DNA of 64,000 nt from Acidobacteriota bacterium. Lineage in GTDB: Bacteria > Acidobacteriota > Thermoanaerobaculia > UBA5066. The notes under the pieces were generated by a model. The model saw only the letters and a program-made list of their open reading frames with translations, did not search any database and was not told where the DNA came from. The stretch lies in contig JAKOVQ010000016.1 of the NCBI GenBank assembly GCA_029781975.1, positions 310,001 to 374,000 on the forward strand, in the 5' to 3' direction. Below, in pieces: positions 8,159-46,737 of the stretch (its first letter is position 1; the number at the start of each line of letters is the position of its first letter). The translations under genes and the position numbers were made by a program.

Positions 8159-9208
8159 ATGACGTCCCCGCCTCCCCGCCGGCCCGCGAGGCGCCCCGCA
8201 GCGAGGCGGCCCGAGGTGGCCGCCGACGCGATGCCCGAGGGGCTTCGCAAGACGCTCCGCCCCCGGCCCGCGCCCCGACTGGCCGCCGGCCCGCTTCCGG
8301 TGCCGATCTCGACGCTCGACTGGCTCCTCTCCCGCGAGAGCCCCGCGGCCCGCTTCGTCGCGCTGCGCGACCTCCTCGGGCGGCCGGCGAAGGACATCGA
8401 GCTGCGCAAGGCGCGCCAGGCGCTGGGGCGCGACCTCTTCCTCCGCGACGTCCTCCCCGCCGTCCGCCCGATGCTTCCGCCCCGCTCCGCGACCGACCCG
8501 GGCTCCTGGCCCGACCCGGGGACGCTCCTCGTCGGTCTCCTCCTCGAGATGGGGTGCGACGCGGAGATGCCCGAGATCCGTCACGCGGCCGACGTCTTCC
8601 TCGCCCGCTGGGAGCGGACGTTCGTGGAGATCGAGCGCTCCGACCCCCCGGTCTCGCCCGGGGGCCTCGCCTTCACCTGCCGGCTCCTCCTGAAGATGGG
8701 GCACGCCGACGACCCCCGCGTCGCAGGGGCCGCGGATTTCGTGGCGCGCCGCCGGGTCGCCTCGCCCGGCACGGGCGAGAGCGTCGCGCCGGACCTCCTC
8801 TTCCTCGCGTCGGTGCCCGAGCCGCGGCGGACGCTCGCCGTTCAGCGCGGGATCGACTTCTGCGTCGAGCGGGCGCTCGCGCGCGAGGTGCCACGGCCGG
8901 CGGCGGCAGGGTGGGACGCGTCGCGCGAGGCGATCGGCTGGCCGGGAGCGGGCCCCCCGGACCTCCTCGAGGTGCTGGAGGCGCTCGCGGCGGCCGGGGT
9001 GCCGCGCGAGCGCGGCGTCCGGACGGCGCTGGAGAGGCTCGTGAGGCGGGCCGACCAGAGGGCGCGGTGGAAGACCGACCGGCCTTTCCCGGTCCGCCTT
9101 CCCGTGGCCCTCGAGCGGCCGGGAGAGCTCTCCCGCTGGGCGAGCCTCCGGGCGCTGCGCGTCCTCCAGCACTTCACCGGACTGACCATCGCGGGGGCCC
9201 CGACATGA
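8159..9208 (+). CDS. Conserved-looking protein of unknown function, helical
   Basis: 349 residues; I do not recognise a named family. After a basic, Pro/Arg-rich start (1-45) the protein is strongly helical, with PISTLDWLLSRESPAARFVA (about 50-69) and repeated helix pairs. The pattern resembles alpha/alpha-toroid proteins (prenyltransferase/squalene-cyclase-like repeats), though no catalytic motif is visible. There is no signal peptide or membrane segment. The ATG at 8159 was preferred to one at 8135, which would overlap the divergent gene, because TATCCT lies 7 bases before it. The stop overlaps the next start (ATGA), coupling it to a lipoprotein. Confidence 0.7.
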   Translation: MTSPPPRRPARRPAARRPEVAADAMPEGLRKTLRPRPAPRLAAGPLPVPISTLDWLLSRESPAARFVALRDLLGRPAKDIELRKARQALGRDLFLRDVLPAVRPMLPPRSATDPGSWPDPGTLLVGLLLEMGCDAEMPEIRHAADVFLARWERTFVEIERSDPPVSPGGLAFTCRLLLKMGHADDPRVAGAADFVARRRVASPGTGESVAPDLLFLASVPEPRRTLAVQRGIDFCVERALAREVPRPAAAGWDASREAIGWPGAGPPDLLEVLEALAAAGVPRERGVRTALERLVRRADQRARWKTDRPFPVRLPVALERPGELSRWASLRALRVLQHFTGLTIAGAPT

Positions 9209-10035
9209 GAGAACGACCGACCGCTCCCGTCCCGTCGCGGCCCGCGGTCCGCGGCGCCTCGCCTCTCCTCGCCGGCCTCCTCGTGGCGTCGGGCCTCGCC
9301 GCGCCGGGGTGCGGCAAGCTGATGAGCCCGCCCCCCCGTCCGCAGGTCGACGGGTACCAGGCGACGGTGACGCTGAAGGCCGGGTCGACGGTGACCGCGC
9401 GCTTCGAGATCGCGGTCCGCGGGGAGGCGGTCCGGCGCTCCCTCGGGGAGCCGGACGCCGGGGGGCCGTACCTGGTGAGGTCGTCCGGGAAGGCGCCGGT
9501 CCTCGAGGTGGACCCCTCCGCCCGGACCGTGAGGGAGGTTCCGGCGGCGCGCCTCCTCGCGGGCCTGGCGGACGTGCCGCTCCAGCCCGGCTTCAACCAC
9601 GCGGCCGAGGCCGCGCGCCGGGGGGTGAAGGAGTACCACCGCGAGTCGGACGGGATCTTCGCGGGGCTGGCGTGCAACGTCTGGCGCTTCGAGGAGATGC
9701 CCGGCGCGATCAACTCCCCGTCGACGACCTACTGGGTCGCCCCCGGCCTCGACAACCTGGTGATCCGGACCGAGCGGCGCCTGCCGCGGGACGACGGCTC
9801 GGAGGAGAGGACGTTCGTCGAGCTCACCTCCATCCGGGCGGGAGCCCCGGAGGAGCTGTTCCGGGTGCCCGAGGGCTACCGGGACCGTGGGGAGCGCCGG
9901 AGGCCCCGCGCGGTAACGCGAGCGGGCGCCGGGTGCGGCGGCCGGCGGGCTTGCGTTTCGGAGGCTGATATGATTTTGGGTTCCGAGGGACCGGCCGGGA
10001 CCCGGCGTCCCCAGAGGAGACCAGCTCGCCGATGA
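9205..10035 (+). CDS. Putative lipoprotein of unknown function
   Basis: 276 residues. The N-terminal hydrophobic segment LLAGLLVASGLAAPGC ends in a lipobox-like site with Cys36, so it is probably lipid-anchored. The mature part is beta-rich (YQATVTLKAGSTVTARFEIA) and includes CNVWRFEEMPGAINSPSTTY, resembling LolA/LppX-like or outer-membrane-linked beta proteins, though no family is certain. The last 45 residues are Arg/Gly-rich and overlie the promoter of the next gene. The start overlaps the upstream stop (ATGA), and its own stop overlaps the next ATG by 4 bases. Confidence 0.7.
   Translation: MRERPTAPVPSRPAVRGASPLLAGLLVASGLAAPGCGKLMSPPPRPQVDGYQATVTLKAGSTVTARFEIAVRGEAVRRSLGEPDAGGPYLVRSSGKAPVLEVDPSARTVREVPAARLLAGLADVPLQPGFNHAAEAARRGVKEYHRESDGIFAGLACNVWRFEEMPGAINSPSTTYWVAPGLDNLVIRTERRLPRDDGSEERTFVELTSIRAGAPEELFRVPEGYRDRGERRRPRAVTRAGAGCGGRRACVSEADMILGSEGPAGTRRPQRRPARR
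9966..9974 (+). promoter_or_regulatory. Extended -10 promoter for the secreted protein gene
   Basis: TGATATGAT is an extended -10 (TG, one base, TATGAT) inside the end of the lipoprotein gene. It would give a leader of about 50 bases to the start at 10032. No good -35 is seen, which is usual for extended -10 promoters. Confidence 0.45.
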
Positions 10036-10910
10036 AGCCAACCCTGCGCTCCTTCGCCGTCGCCCTCGCGATCGCCGTTCCCTACCTGGCGTCCGCGGCC
10101 ACCCCCGTCGACCCGAAGTCCCCGCTCCCGGGGTACCCCGACGGGAAGGGGCCGACGGGCCCGGTCTCGATCACGATCAAGACCCCGAAGCAGGACGAGG
10201 TCTTCCCGATCCCGCCGGCCGAGCCGGGCAAGCCGGCGCCGAAGGGGGCGCGGGTCGTCCTCGAGGTCGAGGTGAAGAACTTCGAGACCTGGAAGGACCC
10301 GAAGTCGGGGCAGGGCCAGCACCTGCAGATGGTCCTCGACGGGCGCTACCAGTTCCCGTACCGCCAGGTCGACAAGCCGTGGGTCTTCCCCTCGCTCCCG
10401 AAGGGGACGCACACCATCCGGCTCTTCGCGCAGCGCCCGTGGCACGAGTCGATCAAGGAGAAGGACGCCTTCGCCGCCGTCACGTTCCACGTGGGCGAGA
10501 AGGACCCCTCCAAGCCCCTCTTCGACCCGTCGCAGCCGACGATCACGGCGAACGTCCCGCGCGGGAAGATCAAGAAGTCGGAGGCGGCGAAGGTCCTCTT
10601 CGACTTCTTCGTCACCGGCTGCACGGTCGGGCCGATCACCGACCCCGAGGCGTGCCAGGTGGTCTACCGCCTCGACGCCGAGCCGCAGAAGACGCTCACC
10701 GCGTGGGAGCCGGTCTGGTGGGAGAACGTCCCCGTCGGGCGGCACGCGTACGTCATCGCGCTCTACAAGGGGGAGAAGCGGATCGAGGCGCCTTACGCCC
10801 TCGACCAGGAAGGCTTCGAGGTGGTCGAGGACGGCCCCGGGGCCCCTGCCGGGCCCGCGGGGGAGACGAACGGCACGACGCCGTCGACCCCCCAGACGAA
10901 CGACAAGTGA
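10032..10910 (+). CDS. Secreted protein of unknown function
   Basis: 292 residues with a clean signal peptide (MKPTLRSFAVALAIAVPYLASAA, cut near 22). The mature part has Ig-like beta strands: VSITIKTPKQDEV, HLQMVLDGRYQFPY and LPKGTHTIRLFAQRPWHES. These resemble domains that describe a substance and its dose in small secreted bacterial proteins, but I cannot name a family. Two cysteines (GCTVGP and EACQ) may form a disulfide. The C-terminus is Gly/Pro/Thr-rich and disordered. It is the third gene of the 8159-10910 run, and it also has its own extended -10. Confidence 0.75.
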   Translation: MKPTLRSFAVALAIAVPYLASAATPVDPKSPLPGYPDGKGPTGPVSITIKTPKQDEVFPIPPAEPGKPAPKGARVVLEVEVKNFETWKDPKSGQGQHLQMVLDGRYQFPYRQVDKPWVFPSLPKGTHTIRLFAQRPWHESIKEKDAFAAVTFHVGEKDPSKPLFDPSQPTITANVPRGKIKKSEAAKVLFDFFVTGCTVGPITDPEACQVVYRLDAEPQKTLTAWEPVWWENVPVGRHAYVIALYKGEKRIEAPYALDQEGFEVVEDGPGAPAGPAGETNGTTPSTPQTNDK

Positions 10911-10978
10911 TCGAGTGATCCGGTGAGCGGGGCGCCGGCCGGCCGATCCGGCCGGCCCCGCCCGCCCGAGCCCGCCCG

Positions 10979-11986
10979 ATGCCGCTCCTCTACAGCTCTC
11001 CCGGAACGCGCCCCGTCGCCGTCGACCCGCCGCTCGTCCTGGCGCCGATGGCGGGGATCACGGACTCCACCTACCGGCTCCTCCTCCGGAGGATCGGCGG
11101 CGTCGGCCTCGTGACGATGGAGTTCGTCTCCTCGGAAGGGCTGACGCGCGGCAACTGGAGGACCGAGCGCCTCCTCCGCTGGGAGGAGGAGGAGCGGCCG
11201 CTCTCGATCCAGATCTACGGCGCCGACGCGGAGCGGATGGCGATCGCCGCCGCGCGGGTCGAGGCGGAGCAGGTCGACGTCTGCGACATCAACATGGGGT
11301 GCCCGGCGAACAAGGTCCTCAAGGGGTGCGCCGGGGCGGGCCTGATGCGCGACCTCGGCCGCGCGCGGGGGATCATCGCCGCGTGCCGGAAGGCCCTCCC
11401 CACGACCCCGCTGACGGTGAAGTTCCGCGCGGGGATCGACGAGGAGCGTCTGAACTTCGAGGAGCTGGGGCGGATCTGCGAGGGGGAAGGGGTCTCGGCG
11501 GTCGCCCTCCACCCCAGGACGGCGAAGCAGATGTACACGGGGCGGGCCGACTGGAGCCGGATCGCACGCCTGAAGGAGGCGGTCCGGATCCCCGTGATCG
11601 GGAACGGCGACGTGGAGGCGCCGGAGGACGTCCCGCGGATGATGCGGGAGACGGGCTGCGACGGGGTGATGATCGGGCGGGCCTCGATGAAGAACCCGTG
11701 GATCTTCCGCCAGGCGGCCGACCTCCTCGCGGGACGCCCGTACCGGGAGGCCACGCTGGAGGAGCGGCGCGACCTGATCCTCCTCCACTTCGGTCTCATC
11801 CCGGTGGCGGAAGGGGACCAGCCGAAGCAGGTGATGAACAAGCTCCGGACCTTCACGGGCTGGTACACCCACGGCGTCCCGAACGGCGGCGAGCTGCGCC
11901 GCAGGATCCAGTCGCTGCCGAGCCCGGAGGCGTTCCGGGAGGCGGTCGAGGAGTTCTTCGCGCGACGCCTCGCCGAGGCGGCGTGA
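10979..11986 (+). CDS. dus: tRNA-dihydrouridine synthase
   Basis: 335 residues, DusB-like. It is an FMN- and NADPH-dependent enzyme that reduces specific uridines in tRNA. Motifs: APMAGITDSTYR at the N-terminus, FVSSEGLTRGN, the INMGCP motif with Cys108, KFRAGID, HPRT and the FMN phosphate site IGNGDV, then MIGRASMKNPW. There is no Shine-Dalgarno in front of the ATG. Next comes a VWA gene 50 bases downstream with its own ribosome binding site. Confidence 0.95.
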   Translation: MPLLYSSPGTRPVAVDPPLVLAPMAGITDSTYRLLLRRIGGVGLVTMEFVSSEGLTRGNWRTERLLRWEEEERPLSIQIYGADAERMAIAAARVEAEQVDVCDINMGCPANKVLKGCAGAGLMRDLGRARGIIAACRKALPTTPLTVKFRAGIDEERLNFEELGRICEGEGVSAVALHPRTAKQMYTGRADWSRIARLKEAVRIPVIGNGDVEAPEDVPRMMRETGCDGVMIGRASMKNPWIFRQAADLLAGRPYREATLEERRDLILLHFGLIPVAEGDQPKQVMNKLRTFTGWYTHGVPNGGELRRRIQSLPSPEAFREAVEEFFARRLAEAA

Positions 11987-22970: not shown

Positions 22971-24053
22971 ATGTCGTCCGTCGTCGTCCCGCCGGAAGCC
23001 CCGGCCCCTCCCCCCGGGCCCGCCGAGCCCGGGTTCGAGCCCGTCCCGGACGCCGGGGCCGCGGCGCCCCAGCAGCTCCTCGGGACCCTCGGCCGGCCGA
23101 CGCCGTCGAGCGTGGCCCGGCGGAGCGCCGAGGACGGCGCCCCGCCGATCGTCTCGCGCCTGGGCCACATCACGCTGGGCCTCTGGTTCCCCGCGTTCCG
23201 GAGCCTCGCCTCGCGCGTCCCCCCCGAGGCTCTCGCCGCGCTGAGCGTCCGGACGGTGGAGCGGGCGATCTGGGCCCGCCGGAGCGTGCGCCAGGCCGTC
23301 CTGGCGAACATGGCGGCGGTCCTCGAGCGTCCGCCCGGGGACGAGCGGGTCGAGGCGGCGGCCCGCGAGATGCTGGCGCACCACTCGCGGACGTGGATCG
23401 ACCTGCTCCGCTACACCGGGCGCCCTCCCGCGGATCCCACGACCCTCGTCGCGCGGCAGGAGGGGACGCACCACCTCCTGGCGGCCCGCCGCGGCGGGCG
23501 CGGGGCCATCCTCCTGACCGGGCACGTCGGGAACTTCGAGCTGGGCGGCCTCTTCCTCCGGGCGGTCGGCCTCCCCGTGGCGGTCGTCTACCAGCCCGAC
23601 CCGTCTCCGGTCGTCGAGCGGCACCGGGCCCGCGCCCGCGACCAGATCGGGGTCCGCTCGCTCCCGGTCACCTCGCCGCTCGCGTTCGTCTCCGTCCTCC
23701 GGAGCCTGGAGGAGAACGTCTTCGTCGCGATCCAGGGCGACCGCGACTACGCGGGGACGGGGCTCCGCCTCCCCTTCCTCGGCAGGAGCGCGTCGTTCCC
23801 CGTCGGACCGTTCAAGCTGGCCGGCGCCTCGGGCGCGCCGGTCCTGCCGGTCTTCGTCCTGAGGGAGCCGGACGGCCGCTACCGGACCGTCGTCGAGGAG
23901 CCGATCCCGGTCGCGCACCCCCGGTCGCACCAGGCGCGCGAGGAGGCCGAGCGCGAGGCGCTGGAGCGCTTCGTCTCCGTCCTGGCGCGGACGATCCGCG
24001 CCCACCCGACGCAGTGGTACTGCTTCACGAAGTTCTGGGAGCCGCTCGGGTGA
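22971..24053 (+). CDS. LpxL/HtrB-type lysophospholipid acyltransferase
   Basis: 360 residues, somewhat longer than LpxL at the N-terminus, where the first 45 residues are Pro-rich and probably disordered. The acyltransferase motif is GHVGNFE (His185, Glu190), followed by LGGLFLRAVGLPVAVVYQ and GDRDYAGTGLRLPFLG. The family moves acyl chains onto lipid A precursors or other lipids at the inner membrane. The N-terminal membrane helix of true LpxL is not clear, so a non-lipid-A substrate is possible. A TAGAAT -10 lies at 22928-22933. It is convergent with the ketosynthase-like gene. Confidence 0.85.
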   Translation: MSSVVVPPEAPAPPPGPAEPGFEPVPDAGAAAPQQLLGTLGRPTPSSVARRSAEDGAPPIVSRLGHITLGLWFPAFRSLASRVPPEALAALSVRTVERAIWARRSVRQAVLANMAAVLERPPGDERVEAAAREMLAHHSRTWIDLLRYTGRPPADPTTLVARQEGTHHLLAARRGGRGAILLTGHVGNFELGGLFLRAVGLPVAVVYQPDPSPVVERHRARARDQIGVRSLPVTSPLAFVSVLRSLEENVFVAIQGDRDYAGTGLRLPFLGRSASFPVGPFKLAGASGAPVLPVFVLREPDGRYRTVVEEPIPVAHPRSHQAREEAEREALERFVSVLARTIRAHPTQWYCFTKFWEPLG

Positions 24054-24108: not shown

Positions 24109-25062
24109 TCAGCCGCCGGCGGCGGTGAGGACGAGGGCGGCGGCCGGCCCCTCCGGGTCGCGGACGAGGACGGCGCACGCGCCGCCCCCGCGACCGATCC
24201 GCTCGACGGCCCGGACCGCGCCGAGCGCTCCTGCGGCGCCGAAGGCGTCGCCGTCCGGCGGCTCCGGTCCGAGGATCTCCCCCGCGAGGCCCGCCCGGCG
24301 CAGGGGGCCGGGATCGAGGCAGCCGTCGAGATCGGGGGACGGGAGGACGAGGGGGAGGGTCCCGAGCGGATGGCCCGCGGCGCGCAGCCAGGCGGCGAGC
24401 CGCTCGCGCGCGCGGACGGGATCGGGCTCGAAGAGAAGGGTCCCGTCGGCGACCGCGGCGAGCGGCGCGGCGCCGGGGCGGCCGGGGCGCTCCAGGACGA
24501 GCGCGGCCCCGCCCCCCGCGAACGTCGGGGCACGCGCCCCGAAGCGGCGACGCGCCGCTTCCCACGCGGGGAGGAGCGCCGGGTCGGCACCGTCGACGCC
24601 GACGGCGACGACGAGCGCTGCGCTTCCCGCTCGGACCCGGTCGGAGGCGGAGAGGATCGCCTCGAGCCCGGCGGTCGGGCCGGAGAGGATCGCCTCCGAG
24701 ACGCCGCCGAGGTTCCAGGCCACGGCGAGCTCGCCGCAGGCGCTGTTGTGGACGGTCTGGGCGAAGACGGCAGGGGAGGGAGGGTCGGCCCCCTCGGCGC
24801 CGCGCAGGAGGCTCCTCGCGTGCGAGAGGATGCTCCCGCGGCAGCCCCAGGCGCTGCCGACGACGACGCCCGCGTCCGCGTCGGGGGAGGCGGGCCTGGA
24901 GACGCCGGCACGCGCGAGGGCGCGCGCCCCGGCGAGGAGCGCGGTCCGGGCGTAGTGGTCGACGCGCCGGAGGCGGGCGAGATCGACGGGAGACGGGTCG
25001 GCCGACGCGCCCGGCCCCTCGTCGGCGCGGGCGGCGGCGGTGACGACCACGCGACGGGTCAC
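24109..25062 (-). CDS. Ketosynthase-like protein without active-site residues (CLF-like)
   Basis: 317 residues with the thiolase-like layout of a beta-ketoacyl synthase N-terminal half, but shortened. At the active-site Cys position the sequence reads SGPTAGLEAI. The region matching the second catalytic His reads GDAFGAAGALGAV, where active enzymes have GHTLGAAG. It therefore cannot be a working condensing enzyme. It resembles chain-length-factor-like or Ketoacyl-synt_2 partners seen in aryl polyene and type II polyketide loci. The start is GTG overlapping the upstream ketosynthase stop (GTGA), so the two are made together, probably as a heterodimer. Confidence 0.75.
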   Translation of the reverse strand: MTRRVVVTAAARADEGPGASADPSPVDLARLRRVDHYARTALLAGARALARAGVSRPASPDADAGVVVGSAWGCRGSILSHARSLLRGAEGADPPSPAVFAQTVHNSACGELAVAWNLGGVSEAILSGPTAGLEAILSASDRVRAGSAALVVAVGVDGADPALLPAWEAARRRFGARAPTFAGGGAALVLERPGRPGAAPLAAVADGTLLFEPDPVRARERLAAWLRAAGHPLGTLPLVLPSPDLDGCLDPGPLRRAGLAGEILGPEPPDGDAFGAAGALGAVRAVERIGRGGGACAVLVRDPEGPAAALVLTAAGG

Positions 25063-26222
25063 GCGCGCTCCAGGACGAGGACGGCGTTCGTCCCGGCGAA
25101 GGCGGACGACGTCGACGCCGCGAACCGCGGGACGGCCTCGAGGGTCCGCGGGGCCCCGGCGACGACGTCGAGCGGGCACTCGGGGTCGGGCTCCTCGAAG
25201 CCCGCGGTGGGCGGCACGATTCCGGTCGACAGGACGAGGACCGTGAGGGCGGCCTCGATCGCCCCCGCCGCCCCGAGGGTGTGCCCGATCGCGCCCTTGA
25301 CGGAGTGGACCGGGAGCGAGCGGAGACGTTCGCCGAAGACGGACGCCAGGCCGAGCGCCTCCATCCGGTCGTTCAGCCGGGTGGCGGTGCCGTGCGCGCT
25401 GACGAATCCGACGGCGGAGGGCTCGGCGCCCGCGTCGCGCAGGGCGGCCGCGAGGGCACGCGCGAGGCCGCTTCCCTCGGGGCTCGGGCGCGTCGGGTGG
25501 AAGGCGTCGGCGGCGGACGCGGCTCCGCGGAGCCAGGCGAGGGGGCGGGCGCCGCGCGCGGCGGCGGCCTCGGCCGACTCGAGGAGGAGGCAGCCGGCGC
25601 CCTCGCCGAGCCCGAGCCCGTCGCGCCGGACGTCGAAGGGCCGGACCGTCCCGGGGCTGAGGGCGCGGAGCGAGTCGAAGCCGGAGAAGACGAACTCCGA
25701 GAGGGCGTCGAAGCCCCCCGCCAGGGCCCGGTCGACCCGGCCCGACCGGATCCACCCCGCGGCCTGCGCGATCGCGGCCGCTCCCGAGGCGCACGCGACG
25801 GAGACCGTCTGGACGGGCCCCGCGACGCCGGTGCGCCGCGCGAGGAGCCGCGCCGGCGAGGAGAGCTCCGAGGCGTCGGTCCAGGGTTCGCCGGCGAGCC
25901 ACGCGGTGAAGGCGCGGTTCCCGCCGAGGGTCGTCCCCAGGACGATCGCGCTCCTCTCCCCCGCGAGGGTCCCCTCCGCCCCGTCGAGCGCCTCTCCCGC
26001 CGCCGCCAGGAGGAGGCGATGGGCGCGCTCGGTCACCTCGCCGAGGGGATCGGGGGGGACCGACGGCACCTCGCACGCCTGCCGCGCCAGGTACGGCGAG
26101 GGGTCGAAGAGGCGGGCCGGCGCGAACGCGCTCGCGTTGGCGAGGAGGCCGGCCCGGAACGGCTCGACCCCCACGCCGAACGCGGAGACCACCCCCAGCC
26201 CTGTGACGGCGACCGACCTCAT
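25059..26222 (-). CDS. Beta-ketoacyl-ACP synthase (KAS I/II type)
   Basis: 387 residues. The catalytic triad is complete: Cys144 (VSVACASGAAA), His277 (SAHGTAT) and His314 (GAIGHTLGAAG). The start MRSVAVTGLGVVSAFG is typical. It condenses malonyl-ACP with an acyl chain. It is translationally coupled to a ketosynthase-like partner without active-site residues. This is not the arrangement of housekeeping fabF (no ACP gene nearby), so it is probably a specialised lipid or polyene condensing pair. An ACP, a dehydratase and a ketoreductase are not in view. Confidence 0.9.
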   Translation of the reverse strand: MRSVAVTGLGVVSAFGVGVEPFRAGLLANASAFAPARLFDPSPYLARQACEVPSVPPDPLGEVTERAHRLLLAAAGEALDGAEGTLAGERSAIVLGTTLGGNRAFTAWLAGEPWTDASELSSPARLLARRTGVAGPVQTVSVACASGAAAIAQAAGWIRSGRVDRALAGGFDALSEFVFSGFDSLRALSPGTVRPFDVRRDGLGLGEGAGCLLLESAEAAAARGARPLAWLRGAASAADAFHPTRPSPEGSGLARALAAALRDAGAEPSAVGFVSAHGTATRLNDRMEALGLASVFGERLRSLPVHSVKGAIGHTLGAAGAIEAALTVLVLSTGIVPPTAGFEEPDPECPLDVVAGAPRTLEAVPRFAASTSSAFAGTNAVLVLERA

Positions 26223-30960: not shown

Positions 30961-33900
30961 TCAGGCCCCGGCCTCGTCGGCCAGGGACTTCACGAGCCCG
31001 GCGTACCTCCCCTCGATCACGAACCCGAGCCGGTAGAAGAACTGGGGCCGGAAGAAGCCGGTGGTGAGCGAGCGGATCCCCGCCGTCGTGAGCCGCTTGC
31101 AGAGGTCCTGGAGGAGCGCGGCGGCCACGCCCTTGCGCTGGTAGCGCTCGGAGACGACGACCTTGTCCATGTGCGCGGTCCCGGCCTCGGCCTGCACCTC
31201 GTAGAAGAGCCCCCCCATGAGGTTGCCGCGCTCGTTCACCGCGACCAGGAAGCGGTGCTCCGGGCGGAACTGGACGGGGAGCTTCGCGGCGAGGAACGTC
31301 CGGTGGAGCCGCCCGACCTCCCGCGGGCTCGAGGCGTGGCGGATCTGGAAGGGGTTCCCGTCGGCGTCGGCGACGGTCACCACCATGTCGCTCTGCCTCA
31401 CGCCGCCGGGGGCGAACGCGACGAGCTCGGCCTCGTCCTCGGGACGGAGGTACGGGTAGGAGAGGCGGGTCAGGAAGTAGTTCGCGTCTGCCGGGAGGGT
31501 GAGGTTGGCGCGCAGGTCGGTCACCGCGCCGCTCAGCTCGGCCGCGGGGAGCTCCCGCGTCCGGAGCCGCCGGATCAGCTCCTCGAGGCCGTCGGCGAGC
31601 GGCCCCTCCGCGTGCCGGAAGACCGTCTGGCGGAAGAAGCGGGCGCGCGCCTCGGGGTAGGAGGAGCGGAGCCGCGCGAGCCCGTAGGTCCCGAAGAGCT
31701 CCTGGAGCGTCGCCGCGCGCGCGGCGAGCGTGGCGTCGGGGTTGATCTGCGACCAGCGCGCGTAGCGCTGGGCCGCGAAGTAGAGCTGGCGCGGCATGAA
31801 CCCCCGCCGCTCGACCGAGTCGAGGAAGGAGGCCAGGGCGGTCCTCAGGCCGTCGTCGGGCCCTGCGTCGGCCTCGGCCAGGACCTCCCTCAGGCGGGCG
31901 CCCCCCTCGTCCTCCCCGAGGACCTCGAGGACGGCGGAGAAGACGACGTCCCAGCCGACGAGGCCCGCGAGGCGCGGGTGGGCCGCCTCGACGCTCCCGA
32001 CGAACTGGCCGCGGAGCGAGCGGAGCAGGGCGACCAGCGTCGTGAAGCGCTCCCGCGCCGAGATGGAGACCAGCCGGGCCCCGGTCTGGTAGTCGTGCAT
32101 CGGGACGATCACGTTCGACGGCTTGGGGTCCGCGACGACGAGGCGCCGTCCCGTGCGGTCCCAGAAGTCGAGGTAGCAGCTGAGCGCGCTCCAGGCGGCG
32201 TAGGGCCAGACGCCGCGGAAGACGTCGTCCTGGGGCCTCCGGGAGAGCCGCTGCAGGGCGTGGTCGAGCGTCTCGCCGGAGATGAACTCCTCGGTCCAGA
32301 GCCCGTGCCCCTCCCAGCGCCCCCCGAAGTCCTCGACGAGCGGCCCCTGCTCGCGCGCCTCCCCGCAGACGATCAGCCAGTCGATCTCCTCCTGGACCGC
32401 CTCGTCCGAGAGCCCGCGGCTCACGTTGACCGCCAGGTCGAACTGGTCGCGCACCCGCGTCTTGACGGCGACGCGGTAGACCGACTTGCCGTGGGCCTCG
32501 CCGAGGAGCCGGACCCAGACGCCCCCCGGGAGGATGTCGGCGAGGGTCACCGTCCGCCCCTCGGCGAAGAGGAACCCGGCCTCGGAGAGGAGCGGCGTGG
32601 TCCGGAACGCGGCGAGCAGCTGCTGGCGCGTCGCGGCGTCGACGTCGTCGTCGAACGCGACGACGTCGTCCCAGCGGTACTCGAGGCCGGTCTCGGGGTC
32701 GACCGCGATCCGGGAGGGCGTCCCGAGCCAGCGGCGGAAGCCCTCGGTGAGGCGTCCCCGCGCGGCGGAGGCGAGGCGCCGGACCCTTTCGGAGGGGGCC
32801 AGCATCTGGAGCCTCGTCAGGACGGCGCGGAGCCTCCGGTAGTTCGCGGGGTGGGCCCCGCCGTACTCGGCCAGGAGCGACAGGAAGTCGCCCGCGACCT
32901 TCGTCGCCGCCTCGGGGAGGTCGGGGCGCCGGCAGCGCGCCTCGGCCTCGGCGACCAGCGCCTCGAGCCGCTCCGGCGAGAGGCCCCGCTCGACGAGGAC
33001 CTCCGTCGTCTCGCCGTCGAGGACCGCGGCGCCGGCGGCGCCCGAGTCGAGGAACCGGCGGACCGTCTCCGGGAACCGCGCCGGCACCTCGGCGAGCGCG
33101 AGGAGCTGGAAGGCGCGGCGGGCAACGGCGAGCGACCCGCTCCGGGCGCACCGGGCGAGGACCCGCCGGGCGGCCTCGACGACGGGCCCCTCCTCCGTCC
33201 CGAGGGCGGTCTCCAGGACCCGGACGCCGAGGAGGGCGTCCTCCGGTCCGGGAGCGTCGACGAGGAGGGCGGCGCGGTGGAGGTCCATTAGCCCCGGCGC
33301 CTTCTGCCGCTGGAGCGACGTCCCCGCCTCGCGGTCCGCCTCGGTCGGCTGGTAGGGCGCGGCGCGGCGGAGCCACGCGAGCTCGGCCGGAGCCCGGCGC
33401 CTCCCGTGGCGGAGCTCGGCGTCGAGGGGCGCGAAGCCGACGAGCCCGTCGTTGCCGAGCCAGAGCCGCGGCGTCGAGAGGAGGACCCCCAGGTCGAGCG
33501 TCCGTCCGCCGCCGGCGTAGACGGCGGAGCCCACCTGGACCTCCTCCTCGCCGAGCCGCCGGACGGAGAGCGACGTCCCGAGCGACGCGAGCGTCAGCTC
33601 GCCCTCCTCGACGCGGAGGTCCTGCGCGGTGACGCCCAGCGCCTGGAAGAGCCAGTTGGGGAAGGTGACCTGCACCCCTCCGACGGCGAAGGTGGTCCGC
33701 CGGTAGAGCAGGCGGATCACGTCGGCGAAGTTCCGCTCGATGACCTTGCGCCGGAACGTCCCCTTCGGCGTCAGCTCGCCGTGCGCGGCGTCGAAGTCGC
33801 GGTCCACCACGGCGAAGTCGACGATCCGCTCGTACGGGGCGAGGAACGAGTTCGCCGTCACGACGAGGGAGCGGAAGTGGGCCTTGAGCTCGGCGGGCGG

Positions 33901-35739
33901 GAGCTTTCCGAGGTCGAGCTCCCGGAACGCGGGGTTCGGGTAGATGAGCGCCGTGTTGTTGGGCCGGTTGTCCCCCACCAGGAAGACCCGGCCGACCGAC
34001 TCGAAGTCCCGGAAGAGGTTCTCGATCTTCTGCGGCGCGATCGTCTCGCCCTTGACGTTCTTGTAGATCTCCTTGACGCGGTCGATGATCCTCACGTAGC
34101 CGTCCCCGTCGGCCTCGAAGAGGTCGCCGGTGCGGAACCACCCCTCCCCGTCGACCGCCGGCTCGAGGCCCTCGTCGCCGAGGTACCCCATCGCGACGTA
34201 GGGCCCGTGGACCAGGAGCTCCCCCTCCTCCGAGAGGGAGATCTCGACGCCCGGCAGGGCGATCCCCTGGGTGTCCTCCTTGTAGCGGAACGGCGGCGTC
34301 ATCGTGATCCCGCCCGTCGCCTCGGTCATGCCGAACCCGCTCACCAGCTCCACGCCGTTGCGCTGGAAGAAGCGGAAGATCTCGGGGTCGAGGTACCCGG
34401 CGGCGGAGATGCCCCACCTCAGCCGGTCGCCGACGACGCGCCGGACGGCGGCGGCGACCACGGCGTCGTCTTCCGCCTCCACGTCCACCTCCTGCCGGAC
34501 GAGGTCGTAGAGCTGCATCCACTTCATCGGCACGCTGATGAAGATCGACGGGCGCTCCTCGCGCATCTGCCGGGCGAGCGTCTCGATCGCGGGGTTGGCG
34601 GCGAAGCAGTAGGTCGCGCCCCAGAAGATCGAGCCCTGCAGCTCCAGGAAGCGCCCGAACGTGTGGAAGAGCGGCAGGTAGGCGAGGTAGACGTCGTCCT
34701 CGCCGATCTCGGGCAGCGCCAGCGCGCGCGCGAACCGCTTGAAGACCATGTTGCGGTTCGAGAAGCAGATCCCCTTGGGCATCCCGGTCGTCCCCGACGT
34801 GTACATCACCGTCGCGAGCTCGTCGATCCGGACCCGGTGGCGGCGGTCGATCAGCTCCTCCGCCGGCACCTCGGCCGACCGCTCGAGCACCTGCTCGAAG
34901 GAGAGGACGCCGCGGTGCGAGGCGGCGTCGGGGTCGAGGGCGACCAGCGTCGCGAGCCCCGGCAGGCCGTCCCTGCACTTGAGCACCTTCTGGAGCTGCT
35001 CGCGCGACGAGACGAGGACCGTGTCGACCCGCGCGTGGCCGAGGATGTACGCGACGTCGGCGTCGGTCGCCGTCGCGGGGACCATCACGTCGACGATCCC
35101 CGAGGAGAGGCAGGCGACGTCGGTCAGAGCGCTCTCCAGCCGGTTCTCCGAGAGGATGGCGACGCGCCCGCCCCGCCGGCCGGTGACCGCGAGGAGGCCG
35201 CGCGCGAGGAGCTCGACCCGCCCGGCCGCCTGATGCCAGGTGACGGTCCTCGTGGCGTCGCCGTCGGGGACGCGGAAGAGAGGACGGGCGCCGTAGGCCG
35301 CGGCCCGCTGGGCGAAGAGCTCGCCGAACGTGTAATGGGAGGCGTCGACGAGCCCCAGGATCCGCGCGGCCCACGCCGCGGTCTCCCCGGCGTCGGAGAT
35401 CCTCCGGAGGAGAGCGCTCCTCCGGAGGAGGTCGAGCAGGTCCCACGCGGCCTGGCGCGCCTCGACGGGAGGGGGGGCGCCGGCGGCCGCGAGGCGCGCG
35501 GCGCAGCGGGCCGAGAGGGCCGCGAGGCCCTCGAGAGACACCAGGCGGAGGAGCCGCTCTCCGTCCCGCCGGTCGCCGAGGAGGGCGACGACGTCGGCGT
35601 CGGTCCGGGCGGAGGCCTCGGGGCCTCGGGCGGCAGCGCCCCGAAGGGCCTCCTCGAGGAGCCCGGAGGCCTCCTCGTCCGATGCGTGCGGGAGGCGGTC
35701 GACGAGGTCGGGGGCGGAGGGCGAGAACCGCGCGTCCAT
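30961..35739 (-). CDS. Acyl-CoA synthetase - kinase-like - GNAT fusion protein
   Basis: 1592 residues in one frame. Residues about 130-720 are a complete AMP-forming acyl-CoA ligase: MYTSGTTGMPKGICFSN (about 311), GFGMTEATGG, GWFRTGDLFEADGDGYV and the Lys motif LTPKGTFRRKVIERN. Residues about 720-1060 are helical (repeat-like). Residues about 1065-1260 look like a protein-kinase/APH-like fold: GKSVYRVAVK, hinge WTEEFISGETL (about 1147) and a loop VADPKPSNVIV (about 1199). The C-terminal about 140 residues are a GNAT acetyltransferase with RYQRKGVAAALLQ. The start at 35739 has GGGAGG 8 bases upstream. There is no transmembrane segment. The kinase-like middle is inferred only from motif order. 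Confidence 0.85.
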   Translation of the reverse strand: MDARFSPSAPDLVDRLPHASDEEASGLLEEALRGAAARGPEASARTDADVVALLGDRRDGERLLRLVSLEGLAALSARCAARLAAAGAPPPVEARQAAWDLLDLLRRSALLRRISDAGETAAWAARILGLVDASHYTFGELFAQRAAAYGARPLFRVPDGDATRTVTWHQAAGRVELLARGLLAVTGRRGGRVAILSENRLESALTDVACLSSGIVDVMVPATATDADVAYILGHARVDTVLVSSREQLQKVLKCRDGLPGLATLVALDPDAASHRGVLSFEQVLERSAEVPAEELIDRRHRVRIDELATVMYTSGTTGMPKGICFSNRNMVFKRFARALALPEIGEDDVYLAYLPLFHTFGRFLELQGSIFWGATYCFAANPAIETLARQMREERPSIFISVPMKWMQLYDLVRQEVDVEAEDDAVVAAAVRRVVGDRLRWGISAAGYLDPEIFRFFQRNGVELVSGFGMTEATGGITMTPPFRYKEDTQGIALPGVEISLSEEGELLVHGPYVAMGYLGDEGLEPAVDGEGWFRTGDLFEADGDGYVRIIDRVKEIYKNVKGETIAPQKIENLFRDFESVGRVFLVGDNRPNNTALIYPNPAFRELDLGKLPPAELKAHFRSLVVTANSFLAPYERIVDFAVVDRDFDAAHGELTPKGTFRRKVIERNFADVIRLLYRRTTFAVGGVQVTFPNWLFQALGVTAQDLRVEEGELTLASLGTSLSVRRLGEEEVQVGSAVYAGGGRTLDLGVLLSTPRLWLGNDGLVGFAPLDAELRHGRRRAPAELAWLRRAAPYQPTEADREAGTSLQRQKAPGLMDLHRAALLVDAPGPEDALLGVRVLETALGTEEGPVVEAARRVLARCARSGSLAVARRAFQLLALAEVPARFPETVRRFLDSGAAGAAVLDGETTEVLVERGLSPERLEALVAEAEARCRRPDLPEAATKVAGDFLSLLAEYGGAHPANYRRLRAVLTRLQMLAPSERVRRLASAARGRLTEGFRRWLGTPSRIAVDPETGLEYRWDDVVAFDDDVDAATRQQLLAAFRTTPLLSEAGFLFAEGRTVTLADILPGGVWVRLLGEAHGKSVYRVAVKTRVRDQFDLAVNVSRGLSDEAVQEEIDWLIVCGEAREQGPLVEDFGGRWEGHGLWTEEFISGETLDHALQRLSRRPQDDVFRGVWPYAAWSALSCYLDFWDRTGRRLVVADPKPSNVIVPMHDYQTGARLVSISARERFTTLVALLRSLRGQFVGSVEAAHPRLAGLVGWDVVFSAVLEVLGEDEGGARLREVLAEADAGPDDGLRTALASFLDSVERRGFMPRQLYFAAQRYARWSQINPDATLAARAATLQELFGTYGLARLRSSYPEARARFFRQTVFRHAEGPLADGLEELIRRLRTRELPAAELSGAVTDLRANLTLPADANYFLTRLSYPYLRPEDEAELVAFAPGGVRQSDMVVTVADADGNPFQIRHASSPREVGRLHRTFLAAKLPVQFRPEHRFLVAVNERGNLMGGLFYEVQAEAGTAHMDKVVVSERYQRKGVAAALLQDLCKRLTTAGIRSLTTGFFRPQFFYRLGFVIEGRYAGLVKSLADEAGA

Positions 35740-35821: not shown

Positions 35822-35854
35822 ACGAAAAGGGGGGACCGGTGCCGGTCCCCCCTT
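35822..35854 (-). terminator. Terminator after citrate synthase
   Basis: The perfect stem AAGGGGGGACCGG/CCGGTCCCCCCTT (35827-35839 with 35842-35854) is followed on the minus strand by TTTTCGTTTT. It lies 20 bases after the gltA stop. Confidence 0.75.
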
Positions 35855-35873: not shown

Positions 35874-37265
35874 CTAGTCGTTCCCGAGGTCGTCGGCCTT
35901 GATCTTCTGGCTCGCCACGTCCTCGAGCATCGCCGTGGTGACCGACTTCGGGCGCTCGATGGCGTAGCCGAGGGCGCGGTCCCAGGTGATGTTCGCCAGG
36001 ACGCCGATGGCCCGGCCGACCCCGAAGAGGACCGTGTAGAAGTCCCACTCGGTGAGGCCGTAGAACCACTGGATGACGCCCGACTGCGCGTCGACGTTGG
36101 GCCACGGGTTCTTCGTCTTGCCGTGCTCGGTCAGGACGCCCGGGGCCACCTGGAAGATCGTGTCGATCAGCTTGAAGAGCGGGTAGTCCGGGAGGTTCTT
36201 GATGCAGAACTCGCGCTGCGCGACGTAGCGCGGGTCGGTCTTGCGCAGGACCGCGTGGCCGTAGCCGGGGATGACCTGGCCGGCCTTCAGCGTGTCCCAC
36301 AGGGCCTGCTTGACCCGCTCCGGCGTCGGCTCCTGGCCGTCGAGCTTCTTCTGGAAGTTCATCATCCAGCGGAGCACTTCCTGGTTGGCCAGCCCGTGGA
36401 GCGGGCCCGCCAGGCCGTTGATGCCGGCCGAGAGCGAGTAGTAGGCGTCGGAGAGCGCCGAGGCGACCAGGTGCGTCGTGTGCGCGGAGACGTTGCCCGA
36501 CTCGTGGTCCGAGTGGAGGATGAAGTACATCCGGGCCACGTCGTCGTAGGGCTTGGGGATCCCCATCATGTGGGCGAAGTTGCCGCCGAGGTCGAGGCTG
36601 TCGTCGCTCGGGATGTGCGTGTCGGCCTTGTACTTCATCCGGTAGATGTAGGCCGCGATCGACGGGATCCTGGCGAGGATGTTCGAGCAGTCCTCGAACA
36701 TCGGGTCCCAGTACTCGTCCTTCTTGATCCCCTCGGCGTAGCGCCTGGCGAAGACCGACTCGCGCTGCATCGCCACGATGGCGGCCGAGAACATCGTCAT
36801 GGGATGGGTGTCGCGCGGCAGGGCGCGGAGGAGGTCGACGACGTAGCCGGGGACGGCCCTCCGGGCCTTCCAGTCCTCGACGACGGAGAGCGCCTCGGCC
36901 TTGGTCGGCGCCTCGCCGGTGAGGAGGTACCACCAGTGCGCCTCGACGAAGGGGTAGGCGCAGCCGTCGGGCTTCGGCAGGACGTCGAGCGTCTCGGGGA
37001 TCGTCCGGCCGCGGAAGCGGATCCCCTCGAACGGGTCGAGGTAGGAGATGTCGGTCACGAGGCAGCGAACGCCCCGCGCCCCGCCGATCGCCTGGGCGAT
37101 CGTCACGTCGCCGATCTTCGTGGCCCCGTGCTCCTTCAGGAGCTTCTGCGTGCGGGGGCGGTGTTCCAGGATCTTGGAATGGAGCTTCTCCTTGAGTCCG
37201 GCCATGGACCCTCCCTTTGTCTGATTCTTCAGCTGCTGCTGGAGTACGGCCTCTGCCACTGTCAT
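35874..37265 (-). CDS. gltA: Citrate synthase, eukaryote-like long type
   Basis: 463 residues. It condenses acetyl-CoA with oxaloacetate to enter the TCA cycle. The active-site residues are in HSDHESGNVSAHT (His), PGYGHAVLRKTDPRY (His) and NVDAQSGV (Asp). Overall length and the motif EYWDPMFEDCSNILARIPS match the mitochondrial-type enzymes more than the short type II forms. A ribosome binding site (AAGGGGGG) precedes the ATG at 37265. A second good one (AAAGGGAGGG) precedes an internal ATG at 37205, giving a 443-residue form. It is divergent from a Lys4-type aconitase, with a shared 328-base gap. Confidence 0.93.
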   Translation of the reverse strand: MTVAEAVLQQQLKNQTKGGSMAGLKEKLHSKILEHRPRTQKLLKEHGATKIGDVTIAQAIGGARGVRCLVTDISYLDPFEGIRFRGRTIPETLDVLPKPDGCAYPFVEAHWWYLLTGEAPTKAEALSVVEDWKARRAVPGYVVDLLRALPRDTHPMTMFSAAIVAMQRESVFARRYAEGIKKDEYWDPMFEDCSNILARIPSIAAYIYRMKYKADTHIPSDDSLDLGGNFAHMMGIPKPYDDVARMYFILHSDHESGNVSAHTTHLVASALSDAYYSLSAGINGLAGPLHGLANQEVLRWMMNFQKKLDGQEPTPERVKQALWDTLKAGQVIPGYGHAVLRKTDPRYVAQREFCIKNLPDYPLFKLIDTIFQVAPGVLTEHGKTKNPWPNVDAQSGVIQWFYGLTEWDFYTVLFGVGRAIGVLANITWDRALGYAIERPKSVTTAMLEDVASQKIKADDLGND

Positions 37266-37593: not shown

Positions 37594-39546
37594 ATGCCGC
37601 AGACCGTCGTCGAGAAGGTCACACAGGCTCACAGGACCGCCGGTCCGAAGGGACGTGCGGTGCGAGCCGGAGACTTCGTATCGATCCGGCCTCGCCACGT
37701 GATGACCCACGACAACACCTCGCCGGTGATCCGGAAGTTCCGGTCGATCGGCGCGGTCCGGGTCGTCGACCCGGCCCTCCCCGTCTTCTGCCTCGACCAC
37801 GACATCCAGAACGCCTCGCCCGAGAACCTCGCGAAGTACCGGGCCATCGAGGCCTTCGCGCGGGAGCAGGGGGTCGACTTCCACCCGGCCGGCTCCGGCA
37901 TCGGGCACCAGATCATGGTCGAGCGGCTCTACGCCCGGCCCGGGGCCTTCGTCGTCGCCTCGGACTCGCACGCGAACATGTACGGGGCCGTGGGAGCGGT
38001 CGGCACGCCCGTGGTGAGGACCGACGCCGCTGCTCTCTGGGCCACCGGCGAGTTCTGGTGGCAGGTCCCGAGATCCGTCCAGGTCGTCCTCGAAGGGAAG
38101 CTCCCCGAGGGGGCCTCGGGGAAGGACGTCATCATCGCCCTCTGCGGGCTCTACGCCGGGGGCGAGGTCCTCAACGCGGCCGTGGAGTTCACCGGCCCCG
38201 GCGTCGCGGCCCTCACCATGGACGACCGGCTCGCGATCTCCAACATGACGACCGAGTGGGGCGCTCTCGTCGGCTGGTTCGAGGTGGACGGGACCACCCT
38301 CCGGTTCCTCAGGGCGCGGGCGGAAGCCCTCGCGGCGCGCGGCGACCGGCGGATCGCCCCGGAAGAGCTGGACCGCTGGGAGGCCGACCCCCCGCGTCCC
38401 GACCCGGGCGCCTCGTACGCCGCCCGGATCACGCTGGACCTCTTGGAGGTCGCTCCCCACGTCTCCGGCCCCGACACGGTGCAGGTCGCGACGCCGCTCG
38501 CCGAGGTCGAGGGGCGGAGGATCGCGATCCAGAAGGCCTACCTGATCTCGTGCGTCAATTCGCGTCTCGCGGACCTCGAGGCGGCCGCGTCGGTCCTCCG
38601 GGGGCGGAAGGTCGCCGCGGGCGTGTCGCTCTACGTCGCCGCGGCGAGCCGGGAGGTCCAGGAGGCCGCGGAGCGCTCGGGCGCCTGGCAGACCCTCCTC
38701 GAGGCGGGCGCGTCGCCTCTCCCCTCGGGCTGCGGGCCGTGCATCGGCCTCGGGACGGGGCTCCTCGAGCCGGGCGAGGCCGGCATCTCGTCGACGAACC
38801 GGAACTTCAAGGGGCGGATGGGGTCGAGGGACGCGAGGTGCTACCTCGCGAGCCCCGCGGTGGTCGCGGCCTCGGCGGCGGCGGGGTACATCTGCGGGCC
38901 GCGGCCGGCGGAAGGACGGAGCCCCGCGCGGCGCATCGAGCTCCTGGCGCCGGCCGAGCCGCCCGCCGAGCGGGTGGAGATCGTCCCGGGCTTCCCCGCG
39001 CGCATCCGGGGCCGGCTCCTCTTCCTCCCTCAGGACAACCTCAACACCGACGGGATCTACGGGAAGGACTACACCTACCGGGACGACGTGACCCGCGAGG
39101 AGATGGCCCGGGTCGTGATGCAGAACTACGATCCCCGGTTCGCGGCCGTCGCCCGGGACGGGGACGTCGTCGTCGCGGGCTTCAACTTCGGGACGGGCTC
39201 GAGCCGCGAGCAGGCGGTGACCGCCCTCCAGGCCAGGGGGATTCCCCTCGTCGTCGCGGCGACCTTCTCGCAGACCTACCTCAGGAACGCCTTCAACAAC
39301 GGCTTCCCCTGCATCGAGGCCCCGGATCTCGTCTCGCGACTGAGGGAGCTCTTCGCGGAGGAGGTCCGGGCGGGGGAGCGGACGCTCGTGCCGGGGGACG
39401 AGGTCGAGGTGGACTTCGCATCCGGGGAGGTCTCCTTCCGCGGCGAGAGGTTCCGCTTCCCCGCGCTCGGGCCGGTCCCCCAGGCGCTCGTCGTCGCCGG
39501 GGGGGTGGAGAACCAGGTCCGCAGGGCGCTCGGCCTGAAGCCGTGA
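37594..39546 (+). CDS. Lys4-type homoaconitase/aconitase family hydratase (single chain)
   Basis: 650 residues. One polypeptide holds the large and small halves. The iron-sulfur cysteines are in ISCVNSR and SGCGPCIGLG. The order of blocks is that of the fungal Lys4 homoaconitase: SDSHANMYGAVGAVGTPVVR, IWATGEFWWQ-like (ALWATGEFWWQVP), NMTTEWGALVGWF and, in the small half, DNLNTDGIYGKDYTYRDDVT and GTGSSREQAVTALQARG. It is next to citrate synthase, so it may act as the aconitase of the TCA cycle or on a homocitrate-type acid, and the sequence does not settle which. A ribosome binding site GAAGGGAG precedes the ATG. Confidence 0.85.
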   Translation: MPQTVVEKVTQAHRTAGPKGRAVRAGDFVSIRPRHVMTHDNTSPVIRKFRSIGAVRVVDPALPVFCLDHDIQNASPENLAKYRAIEAFAREQGVDFHPAGSGIGHQIMVERLYARPGAFVVASDSHANMYGAVGAVGTPVVRTDAAALWATGEFWWQVPRSVQVVLEGKLPEGASGKDVIIALCGLYAGGEVLNAAVEFTGPGVAALTMDDRLAISNMTTEWGALVGWFEVDGTTLRFLRARAEALAARGDRRIAPEELDRWEADPPRPDPGASYAARITLDLLEVAPHVSGPDTVQVATPLAEVEGRRIAIQKAYLISCVNSRLADLEAAASVLRGRKVAAGVSLYVAAASREVQEAAERSGAWQTLLEAGASPLPSGCGPCIGLGTGLLEPGEAGISSTNRNFKGRMGSRDARCYLASPAVVAASAAAGYICGPRPAEGRSPARRIELLAPAEPPAERVEIVPGFPARIRGRLLFLPQDNLNTDGIYGKDYTYRDDVTREEMARVVMQNYDPRFAAVARDGDVVVAGFNFGTGSSREQAVTALQARGIPLVVAATFSQTYLRNAFNNGFPCIEAPDLVSRLRELFAEEVRAGERTLVPGDEVEVDFASGEVSFRGERFRFPALGPVPQALVVAGGVENQVRRALGLKP

Positions 39547-44534: not shown

Positions 44535-44574
44535 GCGCGAACGACGTATGCTCACGGGTGGAGGAGAAGCGGCG

Positions 44575-46737
44575 ATGGCCCTCGCAGCCGGTCTGGTCCT
44601 CGGGCGGTACAGGCTCGTCTCCCGCGCCGGCGCGGGCGGGATGTCCGAGGTCTGGCGCGCCGAGGACACCACCCTCCACCGGACGGTGGCGGTCAAGGTC
44701 ATCCTCGACCCGATCGCCTCCGACCCGACCTTCGCGGAACGGTTCCTCCGGGAGGCCCGGCTCGTGGCCGGCCTCGACCACCCGAACGTCCTCTCGGTCT
44801 TCGACTTCGGCAAGGAGGTCGTCGAGGGGCGCGAGGTCTCGTACCTCGTCATGCCGCTCGTCTCGGGCGGCTCCCTGAGGGAGCGGATCAAGGGGCCCGT
44901 CCCCTTCGGCGAGGCGATCGCGTGGCTCGCCGCGATCGGGGCGGCGCTCGACCACGCCCACGCCAAGGGGATCCTTCACCGTGACGTGAAGCCCGGGAAC
45001 GTCCTCCTCGACTCCACCGGGCGCCCGCTCCTCGCCGACTTCGGCCTGGCGCGGACGGCCGATTCGGCCTCCGGCCTGACGGCGACCGGGACGGTCCTCG
45101 GGACGCCCTCCTACATGGCCCCCGAGCAGGCGGTCGGAAAGGCGCTCGACGGGAGGGCGGACCAGTACGCCCTCGCCGTGATCGCCTTCGAGCTCCTCGT
45201 CGGGCGCGTCCCGTTCAAGGCCGACTCGCCGCTCGCGGTCCTCCACCAGCACGTCTCGGTCGCTCCGGAGCCCCTCTCGCAGGTCCTCGGCGGGGTCCCG
45301 TCGGCAGCCGACCCGGTGATGACCCGCGCCCTGGCGAAGAACCCGGCCGACCGGTTCCCGACGTGCGGGGAGTTCGTCGCCGCCCTCGCCGACGCGCTCG
45401 GCGTCACCGTCCCTGGCACGGTCTCCGGCGCGATGTCGGGTGCCACGTCGGGCGCGGCGGCCGCCGCGGCGCCGCCGGCGGCGGGGGCCGCCCGACCCGC
45501 GCCGCCACCTCTCCCGCCGCCGCCCGGCCCCTCGCCGGCGGCATCGACGCAGGCCGCCACCGTCGTCACCGGCTCCGGCTTCCCGGCGGAGCAGCCGCCC
45601 CTTTCGGCGCCCGCCTCGCGCGCGGCGACGCCACCGAAGAGCTCCGCACGCGCCTTCGTCGCGATCGCCGCCATCCTCGTCCTCGGCGCCGGGCTCGTGA
45701 CCGCCGTCGTCTTCCTCGTGCCCAGGCTGAAGGGCCCCGCGGCCCCGACGCCCGCCCCGCAGGTGGCGGCCGCGGAGAGCTCCACCCTCGCTGCGGCAGA
45801 GGCCACCGCGACCGAGGGGACCACCGCCGCGACAGCGGCTTCTCCCTCAGGGCTCGCGCCGGAGAGCGCGAGCGCCAGCCCGACCGAGGCCGGTGGGAAA
45901 TCGACGACACCGCCGCCCGCGCTCGCTTCGGCCGAGGCCGGCGCCGGCCCGGAGGCGGGAGCCGGGCCAACGGGTCGAGGGGGGGTCGCCGGGGGAGACG
46001 CGGCCACCGGGCCGTCCCGGTCGACGCGCGGAGAGGCCCCGGTCGAGCCCCGCGTCGCCCGGGGGGGCAAGGAGACGGGGGGCGAATCGACGGGTCGTTC
46101 CCGTGTCGAGGGTGAACGGGAGGCCGGTGGGGCGACGCCCGCGTTCCGGCTCCCGCGGCCCGAGCCGCTCCTTTCGGCGTCCGCCTTCGCGGCCGACACG
46201 ACCCTCTCGGGAGCCCTCGCCGACCTCGACACCACCCGCAAGAGGAACGGCCGGCTCGAGAGGGGGGACTTCGCCTCGGCTCTCGGGACGGCCCGCGACG
46301 CCCTGTCGCGCCGACCCACGCCCGACGCCCGGTTCCTCGACGCCTACTGCCGGGGGGCGATCGCCTTCGCGGACGGGAACGACATGGACGCCTGGCGTCT
46401 CCTCGAGCGGGCGTTCGCCCTCGACTCCGGGAGGATCGGGAGCGGGCGCGTCCTCGACTTCGTCCGCGCCCAGTCCGCGGCCCTCGGCCCGAACCCGGGG
46501 CCGGACCGGGGCTGGGTCCTCGGCCTCGCGTTCGCCGACGTCCGCGGCGACCTCGGGGAGGAGCTCCGGAGCGCCGAGGCGCGGGCGCCCGAGAACGCCC
46601 GGGTGGCGTGGGCGCGCGCCCTCCACGCCCTCGAGGCGCGCCGCCCCGGCGAGGCGGCGCTCTACGCGCGGCGCGCCTGCGCCGACGGCCTCCGGGAGGC
46701 CTGCGACCTCCTGTCCGGGGAGCGCGGCCGGCGCTGA
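44575..46737 (+). CDS. Membrane-bound Ser/Thr protein kinase (PknB-type)
   Basis: 720 residues. The kinase domain (about 10-275) is complete: AGAGGMSEV loop, VAVKVI Lys, HRDVKPGN (about 139), ADFGLA, YMAPEQ. Then come an Ala/Pro-rich linker, one membrane segment (about 362-385, VAIAAILVLGAGLVTAVVFLV), a low-complexity stretch and a helical TPR-like C-terminal domain (about 545-715) outside the membrane. The start at 44575 is chosen because GGAGGAG precedes it, while an ATG at 44548 has none. It is divergent from the radical SAM gene and convergent with a CsgG-like gene. Confidence 0.95.
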   Translation: MALAAGLVLGRYRLVSRAGAGGMSEVWRAEDTTLHRTVAVKVILDPIASDPTFAERFLREARLVAGLDHPNVLSVFDFGKEVVEGREVSYLVMPLVSGGSLRERIKGPVPFGEAIAWLAAIGAALDHAHAKGILHRDVKPGNVLLDSTGRPLLADFGLARTADSASGLTATGTVLGTPSYMAPEQAVGKALDGRADQYALAVIAFELLVGRVPFKADSPLAVLHQHVSVAPEPLSQVLGGVPSAADPVMTRALAKNPADRFPTCGEFVAALADALGVTVPGTVSGAMSGATSGAAAAAAPPAAGAARPAPPPLPPPPGPSPAASTQAATVVTGSGFPAEQPPLSAPASRAATPPKSSARAFVAIAAILVLGAGLVTAVVFLVPRLKGPAAPTPAPQVAAAESSTLAAAEATATEGTTAATAASPSGLAPESASASPTEAGGKSTTPPPALASAEAGAGPEAGAGPTGRGGVAGGDAATGPSRSTRGEAPVEPRVARGGKETGGESTGRSRVEGEREAGGATPAFRLPRPEPLLSASAFAADTTLSGALADLDTTRKRNGRLERGDFASALGTARDALSRRPTPDARFLDAYCRGAIAFADGNDMDAWRLLERAFALDSGRIGSGRVLDFVRAQSAALGPNPGPDRGWVLGLAFADVRGDLGEELRSAEARAPENARVAWARALHALEARRPGEAALYARRACADGLREACDLLSGERGRR

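Follow-up and report, generated by a model that had tools for sequence, protein, structure and literature searches.

A single-frame protein family joining an AMP-forming acyl-CoA ligase, a kinase-like fold and a GNAT domain, often encoded near citrate synthase

Acetylation of acyl-CoA ligases by GNAT enzymes is a textbook form of metabolic control in bacteria, with the acetyltransferase acting in trans. The class I-alpha lysine acetyltransferases pair a GNAT domain with an NDP-forming acyl-CoA synthetase that is itself inactive and is presumed to serve as an acetyl-CoA sensor (PMC6456759, PMC8556138), and altered activity has been reported for the citrate synthase of E. coli (PMC11254643). Here we analysed a 64,000-nt stretch of an Acidobacteriota genome (contig JAKOVQ010000016.1, positions 310,001 to 374,000; the whole stretch is called the window), in which one open reading frame (ORF) of 1592 residues on the minus strand (30961..35739) encodes a ligase, a helical repeat, a kinase-like fold and a GNAT domain. 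This order had been read from the sequence in the original prediction, and Pfam, AlphaFold2 and structure comparison now agree on it. Our favoured but tentative reading is of a protein (lysine) acyltransferase with two functions that acts on central carbon metabolism under metabolic gating; its targets would be citrate synthase or its own residue K659. In this family, which occurs in poorly studied phyla, one chain carries both a GNAT and a seemingly active AMP-forming ligase, and a pseudokinase lies between the two. As the original prediction had supposed, no description of this domain order was found in open-access papers, which is in itself weak evidence.

The ORF opens at an ATG at 35739, with GGGAGG just 5′ of it, and has zero internal stops. 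Homologue searches with the middle region (residues 690-1460) gave matches in 12 of 61 close genomes and in 33 of 347 genomes of the phylum. Named genomes contributed 35 loci (Acidobacteriota, Gemmatimonadota, one Calditrichota and one Ignavibacterium), and the distinct relatives number ~56 from at least four phyla. A sequencing error had been named beforehand as a possible origin of the fusion; it is ruled out because nearly all homologues with full coverage are single frames of ~1540-1650 residues in many independent genomes, including the closed chromosomes CP011806, CP070815, CP070722 and CP070637. Thus, the fusion is a real protein family. The split homologues (L100/L062 and L114) have the appearance of frameshifts, and the long ORFs that overlap it on the plus strand of the window were taken as GC-rich shadow frames. 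A well supported branch of the tree separates subfamily A (35 rows, 33-60% identical) from subfamily B (21 rows, 23-33%).

All parts of the fusion gene given below lie on the minus strand. A poorly conserved N-terminal extension (residues 1-135; 35335..35739) precedes the AMP-binding ligase core (residues 143-520, Pfam E 1e-62; 34180..35313), which has the P-loop YTSGTTGMPKG at 313-323 and is followed by the ligase C-terminal domain AMP-binding_C_3 (residues 562-681; 33697..34056). The AMP-binding profile together with the adenylation motifs A3, A5, A7 and A8 places this part in the ANL superfamily. In a motif audit of 34 members, these four motifs and the lysine of the A10 region were near-invariant in both subfamilies (P-loop, GFGMTE, TGD, DRxKEIYK and K659), and therefore the ligase is probably active. 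K659 (codon 33763..33765) is invariant and located two residues before the canonical place of the A10 lysine; the fusion family has ELTPKG(T/S)xxR where long-chain paralogues of the same genome have ELTPTLKVKRR. The best-matching profiles belong to long-chain fatty-acid CoA ligases, but every match scores far below the curated threshold, so a fatty acid is no more than a probable substrate.

Pfam gave zero matches across ~690-1490, and this part of the protein was examined by structure prediction. An AlphaFold2 model of residues 640-1592 (31 homologues in the alignment, mean predicted local distance difference test score, pLDDT, 86) consists of a beta domain, a helical repeat, a kinase-like fold and the GNAT, and a second model of residues 640-1040 (pLDDT 88) has the beta domain followed by an alpha-helical repeat of HEAT/ARM type. 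The beta domain (residues 682-790; 33370..33696) carries an invariant LWxGN in the alignment, and no match to it turned up, with no search made by this domain alone. The helical region (residues 800-1005; 32725..33342) matched solved structures in Foldseek/VIA with Z up to 9.8; with Z below 10 and such a common arrangement, its assignment to one specific HEAT/ARM family was dropped. For residues 1033-1297 (31849..32643), the best match in VIA was Bud32 (Z 13.1, root-mean-square deviation (rmsd) 4.2 over 216 residues), with PRPK (Z 12.6), Rio1 (Z ~12) and an APH-like corramycin phosphotransferase (Z 11.8) close by. The kinase/APH-like fold expected in the middle region is thus present when the predicted structure is compared with solved ones. 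A helical segment (residues 1298-1430; 31450..31848) separates it from the GNAT.

The kinase-like domain had also been credited with a phosphate-transfer step. Such an active phosphotransferase would agree with the Bud32/Rio/APH-like fold and with the D and N that the window copy keeps in its loop (VADPKPSN), but the residues expected of a protein kinase or APH-like phosphotransferase are not conserved. Among 32 aligned homologues, with positions set by motif and predicted secondary structure and not by residue-level structural superposition, the beta-3 lysine position is asparagine in 27, the catalytic-loop lysine is found in 2 and the catalytic aspartate in 17, and the DFG position has no common aspartate. 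Moreover, the kinase loop motif is absent from subfamily B, whose loop is typically like GSLSPANVVVP. By contrast, D1216 in the next turn is invariant in the aligned rows. On this residue survey an active kinase is ruled out and phosphate transfer is highly improbable; because the catalytic residues are not conserved, the domain is most plausibly a pseudokinase retained for a structural or binding role.

The GNAT domain (residues 1461-1588; 30976..31359) is likewise as predicted. Pfam found Acetyltransf_1 at 1490-1573 (E 1e-8), and the part also matches Acetyltransf_7 and Acetyltransf_10; in a profile search against solved structures GCN5 lysine acetyltransferases came closest, with tGCN5 first (E 4e-10), and VIA matched the domain to GCN5/PCAF (Z ~12.9, rmsd ~3 over 125 residues). 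A profile match in 33 of 33 members, together with the fold, places it in the GNAT superfamily. Taken together, the domain order, the kinase/APH-like fold and the GNAT of the original prediction stand, whereas its phosphate-transfer step finds no support; its suggestion that the ligase regulates itself through its own GNAT may still hold. The CoA pyrophosphate loop is kept as [RQ]xxGxG/A in subfamily A and is mostly KxxGxG or close to that in B, the acidic beta-4 residue D/E1525 was found in all members examined, and the motif FFRPxYFYxxGF is strongly kept in A. This conservation bears on the reading that the GNAT and the pseudokinase are non-catalytic sensors, by which the GNAT would bind acetyl-CoA and feed back on an ordinary fatty acyl-CoA ligase of beta-oxidation. 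The lost catalytic residues of the pseudokinase would fit a C-terminal half that may be regulatory, and the alignment shows the ligase far more conserved than the remainder of the protein. However, the strongly kept CoA loop and FFRPxYFYxxGF of subfamily A argue against it, as does a relative that retains the GNAT module without a ligase, and we regard the sensor reading as doubtful.

In this relative (G060, locus L024), an ATG at 11077 opens a 799-residue protein (8678-11077, minus strand) that is made up of the helical region, the pseudokinase and the GNAT and nothing more. The gene in front of it has a clean end, no ligase motif was found on the locus, and the ligases elsewhere in the genome have only 25-35% identity to the query. 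Because the remaining parts are kept there, the GNAT module appears separable from the ligase, as seen in one case from a draft genome. The same variant speaks against pure self-regulation, in which the GNAT would acetylate the catalytic K659 of its own ligase and switch it off, and linkage to citrate synthase would be incidental. The invariance of K659 is consistent with such a switch, but the TPKGT loop is unlike the usual A10 loop and the citrate synthase linkage would be left unexplained; we consider self-regulation alone improbable.

The linkage, like the minus-strand position, the ligase-less variant and the precedent of NDP-forming synthetase-GNAT proteins, goes beyond the original prediction. 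A citrate (Si)-synthase gene lies upstream of the fusion gene on the same strand (35874..37265, minus), with an intrinsic terminator between the two (35827..35854, minus; a very stable hairpin, z -4.7), and an aconitase gene follows on the plus strand (37594..39546). Citrate synthase is encoded at most 6 kb from the fusion in 18 of the ~39 distinct subfamily-A loci, where ~0.5% per genome would be expected by chance (our estimate, with usually one citrate synthase gene in a genome of ~4 Mb), and within 6 kb in none of subfamily B. The linked A loci belong to Acidobacteriota, Gemmatimonadota and Ignavibacterium, and the gene occurs on either side and in both orientations: upstream in the window and in L113 (2.4 kb), downstream on the same strand in L094, L096 and L114, and downstream convergent in the remaining linked loci. 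In L091, aconitase and then citrate synthase stand beside the fusion, and in three further genomes, where the two genes are not adjacent (G267, G115 and G169), citrate synthase is ~13, 23 and 32 kb off on the same contig. Co-transcription alone is a poor explanation, given the terminator and the many convergent arrangements. An operon with conserved partners is ruled out, since no same-strand partner is conserved in an operon with the fusion gene at the homologous loci; signal peptidase and FUR, the other close neighbours in the window, recur at none of the compared loci. The linked citrate synthases form three subtypes, and because these are only 44-58% identical to each other, their sequences suggest that the gene was replaced in situ or paired with the fusion more than once, and was not simply inherited. 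In the genomes of L093 and L094 (CP070815 and CP070722), the matches to citrate synthase are divided between two chromosome pieces far apart, possibly as misassembled or broken genes. Subfamily B loci L077-L080 and L082-L088 lie near glutamate mutase, methylaspartate ammonia-lyase, AtuA-like or fumarase genes and a GntR regulator; thus for several B members the neighbours (glutamate mutase/methylaspartate lyase, fumarase) belong to carboxylic-acid metabolism too.

These neighbourhoods also matter for an acyl relay, in which acyl-AMP or acyl-CoA made by the ligase would pass to the GNAT and on to an amine of a small molecule or lipid, the protein being a single-chain N-acyl amide synthase. Some GNATs outside the fusion family are long-chain N-acyltransferases, and here a ligase closest to the long-chain acyl-CoA ligases shares one chain with a GNAT. 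However, no biosynthetic neighbours are conserved, the linkage is to citrate synthase and aconitase, the Pfam matches are not to the OlsB-type family, and one relative has the GNAT part with no ligase to feed it; the relay is thus unlikely.

A regulatory acyltransferase is the reading we rank first because Pat offers a precedent for a synthetase joined to a GNAT, the ligase here is AMP-forming and seemingly active, and a change of citrate synthase activity has been described (PMC11254643). The linkage to citrate synthase in subfamily A, the kept CoA loop of the GNAT and the ligase-less variant also speak for it. By this reading, the N-terminal ligase would convert its carboxylic acid substrate (probably a fatty acid) to acyl-AMP and then acyl-CoA, and the HEAT-like scaffold and pseudokinase would link it to the GCN5-type GNAT, which would modify protein lysines with acetyl-CoA or another acyl-CoA. 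Through its state or product, the ligase may tell the GNAT how much acyl-CoA is available, much as the inactive NDP-forming synthetase domain may do in Pat, and likely targets would be enzymes of the acetyl-CoA/tricarboxylic acid (TCA) node, foremost the citrate synthase encoded nearby and/or K659 of the ligase. Catalysis, acyl donor, target and gating are what we infer; the concrete prediction is acylation of citrate synthase or K659. A narrower and more questionable form is a new regulatory class in which an active AMP-forming ligase would work through the pseudokinase to feed or gate a lysine acyltransferase, and this in turn would set the activity of citrate synthase and hence TCA entry. 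If this is true, acyl-CoA production and its main consumer would be coupled through one protein.

Several points weigh against the regulatory acyltransferase. Adjacent citrate synthase is missing from half of subfamily A and from every B locus, and gene linkage is no proof of a modification target. On the tree, the adjacent loci are scattered across A with none in B (8 changes), and by this pattern the linkage is partly shared ancestry. The displaced A10 lysine leaves the chemistry of the ligase uncertain. In the structure comparison, other GNATs come to about one Z unit or less from the GCN5 match, so that similarity to GCN5 does not tell protein from small-molecule GNATs.

Other genes of the genome and window were recorded beside these. 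Three SIR2 and three HDAC-type genes are found in the genome itself, in keeping with the acyltransferase reading, and at L129 and L126 (its own contig C38) an HDAC/AcuC-type deacetylase gene lies near acetyl-CoA synthetase, as in reversible Acs acetylation. The window further encodes a Ser/Thr protein kinase as a separate gene (44548-46737, plus strand), and a possible lipid/polyene cluster with LpxL-like acyltransferase, ketoacyl synthase and several Pfam-less ORFs (22971-24053, plus; 25059-26222, minus).

Compared with known systems, the fold of the kinase-like domain is common to the Bud32/PRPK/Rio kinases (Z 12-13), whereas the fusion domain is without their catalytic residues and kinase function is not expected. 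The long-chain AMP-forming acyl-CoA ligases (FadD11-like, Thermus 1ULT) are alike in core, motifs and AMP-binding_C_3, but the fusion has ~900 extra C-terminal residues and its A10 lysine is displaced by two, with ELTPKG and not ELTPTLK. Type III GNATs, with cAMP, ACT or NADP regulatory domains, also combine a GNAT with an N-terminal ligand-responsive part, whereas in the fusion the extra part is a seemingly active enzyme and a pseudokinase. Pat/PatZ/YfiQ (type I and II GNATs, class I-alpha) are, like the fusion, large proteins with an acyl-CoA synthetase domain and a GNAT, which is C-terminal in type I Pat as it is here, and the fusion is likely to be acyl-CoA-responsive as well. However, the Pat-type synthetase is inactive and NDP-forming (PMC6456759, PMC8556138), whereas that of the fusion is AMP-forming by profile with conserved motifs, and HEAT-like and pseudokinase parts are added. 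Since its synthetase is not NDP-forming, we do not file the fusion in class I-alpha, and by analogy it may nevertheless work like a class I-alpha enzyme.
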